From NCBI GenBank assembly GCA_937928425.1, contig CALFVL010000021.1, positions 1 to 50,519 on the forward strand: DNA of 50,519 bases, in the 5' to 3' direction. Origin of the DNA: an uncultured Verrucomicrobiales bacterium. Lineage in GTDB: Bacteria > Verrucomicrobiota > Verrucomicrobiia > Verrucomicrobiales > Akkermansiaceae. Positions 30,185 to 34,672 of this stretch are shown here, one piece after another. A model generated the notes under the pieces. It was not told the DNA's origin. It ran no database searches and worked only from the letters and a program-made list of their open reading frames with translations. Made by a program: the position numbers and the translations under genes. Numbering within the stretch: position 1 is the first letter of the stretch; the number at the start of each line of letters is the position of its first letter.

Positions 30185-32300
30185 GCAGCAGGGCCTTAAG
30201 ATCAGCGGGCTCATCCACGGGTAACTGACACTCGCTTCCTAAGCAGAAGTAGGCTGTAGCCTTGCCATCTTGAGCTGGTAAGGATGCTGAAAACTCACTG
30301 ACTGGGCCTTCCGTCCCTGAGAGTAGCCGATGGCGTTCGAAGTTCTTCGCCGCTTCTATCAGCATCTCTTCGGCCCCCTCTACCCCTGCAATCACCAGTT
30401 TAGCAGGACGATCCAGAAAAAAGGAAAGACTCATTAACATTTCCCCCATACTCGCGGGAGATTCTCTCATCACTTTCTCATAAGAGCGTAAAGTCTGTTT
30501 AGAAATTTCGCGGAGATCCTCCCGCCCAGTCAAGGCTGACAAAATCGCAAACTCACGTGCCGCTAGCGAACTCTCGGTGGGAATCGCAGAATCAAATTGC
30601 CCTTTCAAGCGGAGCACGAGGTCTTCTCTCTGCTCTCCTTGGAAAAAACCTCCATTCATTTCATCGTAGAAGAGCCTTTTTGCTCCTTCTGCAAGTTTCA
30701 GCGCGAAGACTAAATCCTCGCCTTTCAATTCCGCCTCGTACAACTTCCGAGTCCCAGCTAAAAACATCAAGTAACTTTCAGCCTGCAGGGTGCCATCACG
30801 CTCACCATCACGCCAGCGGTGATAAAGCTGTCCTTTCTTCTCATCCCAGAGCTTGCTCTTCACAAAGCGATGCGCTTTACGAGCCGCTCCTAGGTATCTT
30901 GGATTTTCCAAGACGCGCCCTGCCCTCGCCATCGCCCCGATCATAAGTCCATTCCAAGAAGCTAAGATCTTATCGTCTACGGCTGGCGGAACCCGTTTCT
31001 CACGATGCTGCGCTAATTTTGATAAAACACCCTGAATCTTTATCTTTTCATCCTTCTCTAGACTCTCTTTAGCCTTCTTAAAATGAAGGACGTTTTGGTT
31101 CTTAAGAGCCTCAGGATCACTATAGTCGATGAAATTACCTTCATCACTCACCCCCAGCACTTCGCGCGCTAAGGCTAGCTCTTGGTCACTTAAAAGCTCG
31201 GCGAGTTCTGCCACCGTCCAGCAAAAGTATTTGCCTTCTTTACCCTCACTTTGGGCATCCTGAGCACAGTAAAAGCCCCCCTCTGGGTGGGTCAAATCGC
31301 GTAAAACATAATCAGCGATTCCTTGCGCTACCTCCCGGAAAGCCAGCTCTCCAGAAATCAACCACGCATCTAAGTAGAGTTCCAGCAACTGAGCCTGATC
31401 ATATAGCATTTTCTCGAAGTGCGGGATGAGCCATTCACGATCCACTGCGTAGCGATGAAATCCCCCTGCCACTTGGTCATGAATCCCCCCATTCATCATC
31501 CTACGGCATGTTTTTAAAATCGCCTTCCTCCCTTCCTCACCTCCAGACTGAAGGAGGAAACGAAAAACACTCGCTTGTGGAAATTTTAATTCCGTTCCCA
31601 CTCCTCCCCACACCGGATCTAATTCCGCTAACGCGCCCTGCACTGCGTATTCTAGCAGACTTTTTTTCAATTCAACCTGCTCAGTTCTTCCGCTATGACG
31701 TTCTTTAAAATATGCTCCAATCCGGCGGTGCATCTCCACGGATTGTGCGAGTAGTTCCTCACGATTCTCGCTCCAAATTCCCTGTACTTGCTGTAAGACC
31801 GAGAGAAAACCCGCTTGCCCTAATTTATCTTCAGGAGGAAAGTAGGTTCCTCCAGTCAGGGGCTTTAAGTCCGGAGTCAGAAACATATTAAGAGGCCAAC
31901 CTCCGCTTTGTTGGGTCATCGCTTGAAATGCCGTTAAATAGACCTGATCCACATCTGGTCGCTCCTCTCGATCCAGTTTAATCGAGACAAAATGCTCATT
32001 CAAGAAAGCTGCAATTTTCTCATTCTCAAAAGACTCGCGCTCCATGACGTGGCACCAATGGCAAGTTGAGTACCCCACGCTCAGTAAAATCAATTTCTTC
32101 TCGGTCTTCGCCTTTTCAAAGGCCTCCTCTCCCCAAGGAAACCAGTCAACGGGATTATGCGCATGCAAGAGTAAATAAGGGGACTTTTCCTCCTTAAGAC
32201 GATTGGCCCTCTTTTCCTCCTTTTCAGTAGCATTTGCCAGTGAAAGCGAAATCCAGCCAAGCCGCAAAATCGTCGAAAATGTAGAACGAAACATCCCCAT
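30159..32300 (-). CDS. Thioredoxin-domain (DUF255 / YyaL-like) protein
   Basis: [33 protein letters not shown]...[20 protein letters not shown]...[31 protein letters not shown]. Confidence 0.95.
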
Positions 32301-32360
32301 ATCTTAGTCCTAAGGTCGCGCGAGGACAATAAATTCAAAAAACAATGAGCCTAAGTCACT

Positions 32361-32390
32361 TTGTTACAGCGCTTTAAAAGATCTTTTAAT
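32361..32390 (+). promoter_or_regulatory. Possible sigma70-type promoter for the candidate ncRNA
   Basis: TTGTTA (32361-32366), 18-nt spacer, TTTAAT (32385-32390); predicted start near 32397. The spacer overlaps an AGCGCTTT/AAAGCGCT inverted repeat. Confidence 0.35.
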
Positions 32391-32396
32391 TAAAAG

Positions 32397-32570
32397 CGCT
32401 TTTTCTTTGAACAAAGCCCCTGATCTGGAGTCTATTATCTCTGAAAGCAGCAACTAAGTCGCAGTTTTCATGTAAGGGTGAACAGCAGTTGTCAGCTTCA
32501 GATTCAATAATAGTTTTTGGGGTTGATTGACTCAGCCACAGGGGATCTTCGGATCCCCTGTGGTCTTTTT
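32397..32570 (+). ncRNA. Candidate structured small RNA or leader RNA
   Basis: No plausible ORF; nested complementary segments AGCCCC/GGGGTT, CTATTAT/ATAATAG, TCTGAA/TTCAGA, GCAACT/AGTTGT; ends in a strong intrinsic terminator with no upstream + strand gene nearby. Confidence 0.5.
32536..32570 (+). terminator. Rho-independent terminator with UUCG tetraloop
   Basis: 12-bp perfect stem CCACAGGGGATC / GATCCCCTGTGG around TTCG, followed by TCTTTTT. Confidence 0.92.
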
Positions 32571-32713
32571 ATGTACGGCGTTTTTCTCTAGGAAAACATC
32601 CCTTAAAGCTTGCTAGAAATCCCGCCATCAGACTTGCCCCCAGCACTCATTCCACCTTAACTCTCGTCCGCGTAGCGTATATCGCCTTATCTTGACTCAC
32701 TGATTCCTCAACC

Positions 32714-34672
32714 ATGATTGAAAATATCCGTAAATACACTGGTCTTATGATCGTCGTCCTCGTCCTTCTCTTTGTAGGACTCGTCTTCCTCGGCGATGGG
32801 GTCAGTAACTCCTTCGGCAGTAAGCCAGTCATGAAAACTGCAGGGCAATCAATTTCTCAGAAAAAATTTGAGCGCAATCTAGCCGTCCGAGAACTCCCGG
32901 CCTCACTGTCATTTGCTCCCCTCCCCCGCCAAGCTCGCGTCTTAGCCAGCCATTACCTCGGTGATTCAATTATCGACTTCCAGCAGGCGAGCCCCGGTTC
33001 AATCGTCAGTCAAATGAGTTACTTCCTTCAAGTGAATTCATCCCCTGAACGCTTCATTACCAATCGCATTAGCGTGCAAAAAGCTGGAATCGATTATGGT
33101 GTGACACCCAGTAACGAGGAAGTTGAGCGCTTTGTTGAGAATGTCCTCTTTGCAGATAATGAAGGGAACTATGACATCGAAGCGTATAATGACTTCGTCA
33201 AAAACCGGATCACGAACCTCGGAGGGACAAAGGGCTTTAATGAATACGTCAAAGATCTTCTCACCGCCCAAAACCTCTCGAAACTCCTCGGGGGTGGCAT
33301 TGCCCCAGAGTTAGAAACGCTGAGAGCCATTTACGATAACGAGGGACAGGTCATCACTGCTGAGCAAATTGTCATCGAACCCGGAAACTATGAAGCGAAG
33401 GTCGAGCCCAGCGAGGACGAGATCAAGGCCTTCTATGAAGAAAATAAGGCCAATTATAATTCAGATGAATTGCGCAGTGTCTCCTACGTGCATATTCAGC
33501 CGAACTGGAAGGAAACTTTGGAAAAAATCACCGCAGAGAAAGCCGAGGCAGCTAAACTAGCCGCAGAAAAGGCAAAGGAAAAAGAGGCCGCTCAAATGAA
33601 GGCCGAAGAGGAAGCTGAAAAAGCAAACTCCACTGAAATTCCGCAGGCACCGCAAGTCACTTCTGAAGAAATGCCCAAGGAGCAATCAGAAGCCCCAGAA
33701 ACCTCTTCACCGGAAGCAGGTTCTCAGGGAGACCCCGGCGAGCTCGGTGAGCAAGCACCTGCACCAGACCAGACTGAAGCGGCTCAAGAAAGCCCTCCCA
33801 CCTCAGAAACCCAGTCTCCAGTCGACTCCTCAGCACCTGCTCAATCTGCCGAAGATCAGCTCAATGGCGCCGAGAAGAATCAGGCCGTGAATGCTCTTAC
33901 TCAAGAGGTCTCACTCTTCATCCAGAAAGTCCTCGATGACGAACTGGGGGCTAACTTTGAAGCACTTTCAAAGGAAGCAGGCTACACTCTCGTCAACACT
34001 GACTTCTTCTCCAAAACAGCCCCCCCCAAGGAACTGACTAAAAACATCCAAGACAGTCCTGTCGGGTCACTCGCTAACGCCATCTTTCTTCTTCCGGCCA
34101 ATGGAGATAGTGACGAAAAACTCAGTAACCCACATAAGACCAGTAGCGGCTGGTTCATCTTCCGCCTCGATGAGGTTAAAGAGTCAGTCCCACTCAGTTA
34201 TGAAGAGGCCAAGGTTCGCGTCACCGTCGACCTTAAGAAGAAACTGGCCCGTGAACTCATGGTTGAAGAGGCCAAAGTGGTGCACGAAAAAATCACAGCA
34301 GCACTTAAGGAAGGAAAAAGCTTTGAGGATGCCGCTAAGGCCCTCGACCACAGCGTTGAGAAAAAGCCTAAGCTCGTTGCAGGACAAAGCTTCCAAGGAC
34401 GCTTCTTCGGAGACCCCTCTTTTGAACCTGCTCGTTCTACGAATGCTGGCGAGCTCGCCCCCCTAGAATTGACCCCTTCTAAAGAAGATCCTCAGCGTGC
34501 CCTCATCATCTACGTTGATAAGCGTGAGATCGTAAAAGATGCGCAATACTCCACTCAGCTCGACAATACCTTCAATAGCCGCAGCCAAGCATCACGCTTA
34601 GTCGCTTTTGAGAATTGGCTTAACGATCGCTATAAGGAGAGTAATGTCATCCCACCAAACCCGAGTGAGTAA
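32714..34672 (+). CDS. SurA-N/PpiD-like membrane-anchored foldase
   Basis: MIENIRKYTGLMIVVLVLLFVGLVFLGDG N-terminal TM, SurA_N-like helical region, C-terminal GWFIFRLDEVKES; long E/A/P/S-rich insertion. Confidence 0.75.
   Translation: MIENIRKYTGLMIVVLVLLFVGLVFLGDGVSNSFGSKPVMKTAGQSISQKKFERNLAVRELPASLSFAPLPRQARVLASHYLGDSIIDFQQASPGSIVSQMSYFLQVNSSPERFITNRISVQKAGIDYGVTPSNEEVERFVENVLFADNEGNYDIEAYNDFVKNRITNLGGTKGFNEYVKDLLTAQNLSKLLGGGIAPELETLRAIYDNEGQVITAEQIVIEPGNYEAKVEPSEDEIKAFYEENKANYNSDELRSVSYVHIQPNWKETLEKITAEKAEAAKLAAEKAKEKEAAQMKAEEEAEKANSTEIPQAPQVTSEEMPKEQSEAPETSSPEAGSQGDPGELGEQAPAPDQTEAAQESPPTSETQSPVDSSAPAQSAEDQLNGAEKNQAVNALTQEVSLFIQKVLDDELGANFEALSKEAGYTLVNTDFFSKTAPPKELTKNIQDSPVGSLANAIFLLPANGDSDEKLSNPHKTSSGWFIFRLDEVKESVPLSYEEAKVRVTVDLKKKLARELMVEEAKVVHEKITAALKEGKSFEDAAKALDHSVEKKPKLVAGQSFQGRFFGDPSFEPARSTNAGELAPLELTPSKEDPQRALIIYVDKREIVKDAQYSTQLDNTFNSRSQASRLVAFENWLNDRYKESNVIPPNPSE

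Follow-up and report, generated by a model that had tools for sequence, protein, structure and literature searches.

The small RNAs (sRNAs) CcsR1-4 of Rhodobacter sphaeroides are tandem homologous sRNAs under the stress sigma factors RpoHI and RpoHII, and the enterobacterial sRNAs MicA, RybB and MicL depend on Hfq. The latter three belong to the RpoE regulon of enterobacteria; they are short, encoded in trans, and transcribed from an ECF sigma promoter (PMC8103513). In the Qrr RNAs of Vibrio, a 32-nt core is faithfully conserved inside otherwise variable siblings (PMC4211561). The Rfam catalogue has been reviewed as holding 8 distinct sRNA families in the Planctomycetes-Verrucomicrobia-Chlamydiae group versus 345 in Proteobacteria (PMC9029176), and it is because such RNAs are almost unknown in the phylum that the family described here is of interest: a family-wide sRNA that has several copies and a defined promoter offers a concrete entry point to RNA-based regulation in Verrucomicrobia that lack Hfq. 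Cultured species of Luteolibacter and Haloferula allow direct tests of the RNA, and its promoter can serve as bait in the search for the sigma factor and the genes of its regulon.

The locus lies in a 50,519-nt stretch of contig CALFVL010000021.1 from an uncultured Verrucomicrobiales bacterium of the Akkermansiaceae, hereafter the window. Our main reading, to which we give a probability of about 0.62, is that it encodes one of a family of sibling sRNAs that would be driven by an ECF sigma factor, induced by stress, and active in trans through a nearly invariant linker. Like MicA, RybB and MicL, the RNA is short and trans-encoded with an ECF-type promoter (all predicted here), but it has no Rfam match to any of the three, several siblings occur per genome, and Hfq was not found here. 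The exposed motifs of CcsR1-4, from another phylum, are C-rich, unlike AAGGGUGAA here. With Vibrio Qrr and the streptococcal csRNAs it shares the presence of several copies, dispersed or in tandem, whereas phylum, promoter type and sequence differ, the Qrr genes being activated by LuxO (PMC4211561). Qrr may thus serve as a precedent for siblings with one core, and MicA and RybB as one for ECF-driven sRNAs; the family itself is previously uncatalogued, its kind (stress-sigma-driven sibling sRNAs) already known. The features of the locus are as follows.

start 32300, - strand: upstream gene, thioredoxin-domain DUF255 protein (Pfam)
32368..32400, no strand assigned: A+T-rich inverted repeat AGCGCTTTAAAAGATCTTTTAATTAAAAGCGCT, directly 5' of the promoter (read from the sequence)
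32406..32412, + strand: -35-like element TTTGAAC, conserved as YTTTGAAC(G/A), 5' of nearly all copies
32430..32436, + strand: -10-like element GTCTATT (consensus GGTCTNA), ECF-type, from the alignment of upstream regions
32443..32570, + strand: predicted sRNA gene, ~128 nt, its start placed by the -10 element and its end by the T-run
32442..32470, + strand: hairpin H1 (UGAAAGC...GUUUUCA) at the extreme 5' end; folds alone; covarying pairs in 86- and 82-row alignments
32471..32487, + strand: single-stranded linker UGUAAGGGUGAACAGCA, nearly invariant, unpaired in the ensemble centroid
32487..32532, + strand: hairpin H2 (AGUUGUCAGCUUC...GGGGUUGAUUGACU), variable loop, covariation, tested pairs all kept in close relatives
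32535..32570, + strand: intrinsic terminator hairpin and U-run, UUCG loop in the window copy (sequence scan and alignments)
32714..34672, + strand: downstream gene, SurA_N/Rotamase_2 periplasmic foldase (Pfam), a neighbour outside the RNA

A first-pass annotation of this DNA had pointed out an orphan terminator on the + strand, flanked by genes that start at 32300 on the - strand and at 32714 on the + strand, and had proposed a candidate novel sRNA. The flanking genes are as it described, and the terminator is present: at 32535-32564 (+) a 13-bp stem closed by a TTCG loop leads into a T-run, the top terminator-like site in the 6 kb that were scanned. The sRNA proposal is now backed by conservation, covariation, paralogues and a conserved promoter, and covariance models of the family (R1 and R2) match the window at 32440-32570 with E-values of 1e-31 and 1e-25. 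Comparison with relatives, which sets the boundaries, indicates that the terminator closes a real small RNA gene, and a predicted promoter and terminator of its own, conserved at nearly every copy, argue that this gene is an independent one. The Rfam scan that the annotation had proposed found no family in the region: with release 15, nothing in 32290-32720 reaches the gathering threshold, and the matches at E up to 10 are chance matches far below it. Our search of the literature on sRNAs of Verrucomicrobia, Akkermansia or Luteolibacter found nothing relevant.

Compared with one another, the homologues share a common anatomy: an A-rich stretch leads into TTTGAAC, GTCTAYT follows after a gap of 17 bases, and about 7 bases further on come H1, the linker, H2 and the terminator. 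H1 reads GAAARCYGCRAC...GUYGCAGUUUUC across homologues, and the linker common to the homologues read together is CAUGUAAGGGUGAACAGCA, its core AAGGGUGAACAG lying at 32474-32485 in the window. This linker, about 18 nt long, is nearly identical over eight genera and among paralogues, whereas the helices vary. The purine-rich AAGGG that had been thought exposed is indeed the core of the linker, but for another structural reason than the one given.

The helices are conserved as pairings. In an 86-row alignment of homologues, 91.4% of cells pair versus 78.8% in shuffles and at most 48% when slid by 1-3 columns; changes on both sides are seen at 33 of the 37 pairs, and none of 500 shuffles reaches any of five measures. 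A cleaner alignment of 82 rows gives 91.6% of cells paired and 27 of 37 pairs double-changed (0/500 shuffles). Across the two alignments, the paired share of cells falls to 79-80% after shuffling and does not exceed 53% after sliding, with 287-316 double-changed cells observed and 87-98 expected; both alignments were fitted to the covariance model, and these figures therefore lean towards its structure. The seed MAFFT alignment nevertheless shows compensatory changes too, as do independent folds of single sequences. Across homologues the terminator changes in sequence and keeps its pairing (98% of cells paired, compensatory changes at 12-13 of 13 pairs). The covariation in relatives that the first-pass annotation had asked for is thus strong, with 27-33 of 37 pairs double-changed, and it is covariation, rather than fold energy, that we take as the decisive structural evidence on these comparisons. 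The RNA at 32442-32570 folds at -49.0 kcal/mol (z -4.9, 0/200 shuffles as good), which is mostly owed to the terminator, since z is -1.5 with the terminator removed. The RNA appears to be non-coding: there are compensatory changes in all helices, and the reading frames across the linker differ between copies and stop early.

The three-hairpin fold replaces the long rod with internal loops that had been drawn for this region. The paired segments named for the rod do exist in the window, but the rod itself breaks down in the five nearest relatives, which retain 2-3 of the 6 pairs of its outer helix AGCCCC/GGGGTT and 0-4 of the 7 pairs of CTATTAT/ATAATAG; both of these helices draw on promoter bases 5' of the likely transcription start. 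The same five relatives keep H1, H2 and the terminator, H1 being partly lost in one. The foldability claimed for the stretch also failed, as without its terminator it folds no better than shuffles (z 0.01).

When 58 relatives were searched with the DNA of 32340-32600, ten genomes gave matches, the best conserved part being 32450-32498, which also matches other genera of the family; one genome (G032) had four copies. The window's own genome holds five copies: besides the window copy, a search for the linker core returned four sites, all with TAGGGTGAACAG. These four form a second sub-type of the gene and have promoter, H1, linker and terminator in common with the window copy. Three of them are near-identical and lie on contig C129, and one is on C52. 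The copies of the C129 trio (L015:2811-3797) stand 424 bp apart in tandem with the flanking gene fragments repeated too, and this array is a recent duplication. Copy number per genome ranges from 1 to 6, with tandem copies in several genomes.

Model R1 finds matches in 69 of 145 genomes of the family and, in a sample of 289 genomes across the phylum, in 14, of which 13 are from the window's own family. Model R2, built from 82 copies, finds matches in 104 of the 387 genomes of the order; sixteen of these were set aside as weak (E above ~3e-5), of which 7 belong to other families and 9 to one genus (g3) of the window's own family, and those inspected match in the terminator only, with the core missing. 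About 88 of the 387 genomes therefore carry the sRNA, all in the window's own family and spread over eight genera. Weak matches within the window's genus are genuine second-sub-type copies with a promoter, the core being intact in 4 of 5. Among named genomes, matches occur in Luteolibacter, Haloferula and Roseibacillus, together with many MAGs labelled Akkermansiaceae or Verrucomicrobiaceae; Luteolibacter pohnpeiensis KCTC 22041 and Haloferula rosea KCTC 22201 are examples of carriers in culture. Viral contigs and genomes from outside the Verrucomicrobia also contain the core motif, but there it lies in unrelated sequence that lacks promoter and fold.

The promoter shared by the copies runs, in the window, from 32406 to 32436 (TTTGAAC-N17-GTCTATT), with an inferred start near 32443. 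It is not the TTGTTA-18-TTTAAT (32361-32390) proposed earlier, which is neither conserved nor flagged by a promoter scan, and the transcript is therefore expected to measure ~128 nt, the length given by the anatomy of the relatives, instead of ~174 nt. Of 78 copies, 73 have a spacing of exactly 17 between GAAC and GTC, one has 18 and four show a base change, and position-wise information in the alignment of upstream regions peaks at GAAC and GTC. The -35 boxes of ECF sigma factors are typically of the GAAC type, as in GGAACTT for E. coli RpoE and ATTGAAACCTTT for B. subtilis SigW (PMC8103513); the -10 element GGTCTNA is unlike TATAAT. With its GAAC-type -35, GTC-type -10 and fixed spacing, the promoter thus looks like an ECF-type promoter.

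In the window's own genome the pattern TTYGAAC-N17..19-GTCTA has six matches, five of them directly upstream of the five copies; the reversed pattern, used as a control, also has six, so that the evidence lies in the coincidence of place and not in the count. A strict form of the pattern has 16 matches in eight genomes of the family versus one in the control, and nine of the 16 start copies of the sRNA. One of the matches (L177, G066:C1:5380343-5380372, - strand), which itself falls within an open frame, lies 62 nt 5' of a gene for a Sigma70_ECF protein (PF07638) in one relative, and this gene, a single case, is a candidate for an autoregulated sigma factor. Another (L174, G092:C1:5592844-5592873, + strand) stands 53 nt before an ORF of 308 aa that looks sigma-like by eye and has no Pfam match. 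None of the 11 Sigma70_r4_2 genes of the window's own genome carries the motif at its promoter, and an autoregulated sigma gene in that genome was therefore rejected. Taken together, the GAAC-type -35, the -10 unlike TATAAT, and the pattern near sRNAs and a Sigma70_ECF gene make ECF control of the sRNA promoter likely.

The promoter could instead be a variant housekeeping promoter and the RNA constitutive, as TTGAAC resembles the -35 consensus TTGACA and no Sigma70_r4_2 gene of the own genome carries the motif at its promoter; against this, the -10 element GGTCTNA has neither the A at position 2 nor the last T of TATAAT, the spacing is fixed to one value, and in the own genome the pattern matches almost only at these sRNA genes, and we consider this account doubtful while allowing it a real chance. 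A cis-acting leader or attenuator of the foldase gene, which the first-pass annotation had offered, is suggested by position, since the foldase lies in the same orientation 144 nt downstream of the sRNA and is the downstream neighbour at 16 of about 70 loci. The copies, however, adjoin many unrelated genes at most other loci, including all four other copies of the own genome. A secretin-like gene is upstream at 12 of about 70 loci (named by reading sequences), and the other neighbours, also named by sequence reading, include an Ada-type methyltransferase, a MATE transporter, a sodium-solute symporter/pheT, a homoserine acetyltransferase and others. Since the neighbouring genes differ between copies, the RNA is not a leader of the foldase gene; the conserved fold offers no helix that would compete with the terminator, which is constitutive in form, and the change of neighbours from locus to locus largely refutes the leader reading, which is now very improbable. 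As far as sequence comparison goes, promoter, RNA and terminator move and duplicate together as one unit. A 6S-like RNA had also been suggested. Size range and stable fold are alike, and no 6S RNA is annotated in the window, which would leave room for a Verrucomicrobia 6S RNA diverged beyond Rfam's reach, but RF00013 gives no match to E 10, and the RNA forms three separate hairpins, not a rod in which a closing stem and a terminal stem flank a central bubble; the genomes hold up to six copies. We rejected 6S RNA on these grounds, and the diverged version is scarcely credible.

If the main reading, an ECF-driven sibling sRNA acting in trans, is right, an ECF-type alternative sigma factor would recognise YTTTGAAC-N17-GTCTNA and transcription would start ~7 nt 3' of the promoter, so that the RNA would begin directly with H1. 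H1 and H2 would protect the ends and hold open the ~18-nt linker, and the terminator hairpin would end the RNA. Activation of the sigma factor, probably by envelope or other stress, would make all siblings together, and the linker would work in trans upon partners that the siblings share, most likely through Hfq-independent pairing to mRNAs. Gene boundaries, structure, linker invariance, siblings, promoter and the absence of recognisable Hfq come out of comparison between genomes, whereas ECF dependence, stress induction and trans action by base pairing are what we infer from them; the recurrent copies, nearly all behind one unusual stress-type promoter and all exposing a nearly invariant stretch, make this probably a stress-induced regulatory RNA.

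Hfq (PF17209) was not found in 10 family genomes, the window's own among them, while the same search was positive in 5 of 14 controls, and any pairing would therefore be Hfq-independent or use another chaperone. Near-complete complements of the linker in mRNAs (18-mer, up to 3 mismatches, six genomes) amounted to scattered single matches at control frequency, and over the six genomes none marked a shared or conserved target place, so trans pairing lacks sequence support and a protein partner becomes possible. A duplex between the linker and the anti-Shine-Dalgarno tail of 16S rRNA was rejected, since 18% and 10% of shuffled linkers reached an energy as good. With no conserved complement and no anti-Shine-Dalgarno preference, a protein partner stays a serious rival: the same sRNA family, with a linker that binds a protein instead of mRNAs, the RNA being its sponge or scaffold in the manner of CsrB-type RNAs and CsrA. 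A stretch of ~18 nt kept nearly invariant, no matching complementary target, and the amplification of copies expected for titration all favour this; on the other hand, there is one motif copy per RNA, whereas known titrating RNAs repeat theirs, there is no candidate protein, and the linker motif, as we take it, is not of the CsrA type ANGGA. We consider this version unlikely, with some weight of its own. A bolder version, which we put forward as speculative and improbable, has a dedicated ECF sigma factor with a small set of ncRNAs as its main output (the siblings, perhaps with the element of L162, L171 and L175 described below), that is, an RNA-centred, Hfq-less stress regulon in which the linker would work through an undescribed chaperone.

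A further observation concerns the A+T-rich inverted repeat at 32368-32400, which is flanked by AGCGCT/AGCGCT and then by TTTTC, and which could be a second terminator or an operator. It was not seen at the matching place in the upstream regions of relatives, and is therefore probably no necessary part of the gene.

Behind TTTGAAC-N17-GTCTNA there is also a second conserved intergenic element, at L162:1441-1830 (+), the same place of L171 (-), L175 (+) and, less clearly, L163 (-), with a conserved CAAGAAATTTCT upstream and GGGGAAATGGCGCGGAACGATCGAACTCATGGAC downstream. It accounts for three to four of the seven remaining strict-pattern matches, gives no Rfam match, and is possibly a further ncRNA of the same regulon. 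Finally, in one MAG (L089:6814-7015, -) a further short hairpin that resembles a terminator (GGAAACGGAAGCGAAAGCCTCCGTTTTT) stands between the promoter and H1, so that in this case read-through might be needed to make the full RNA.
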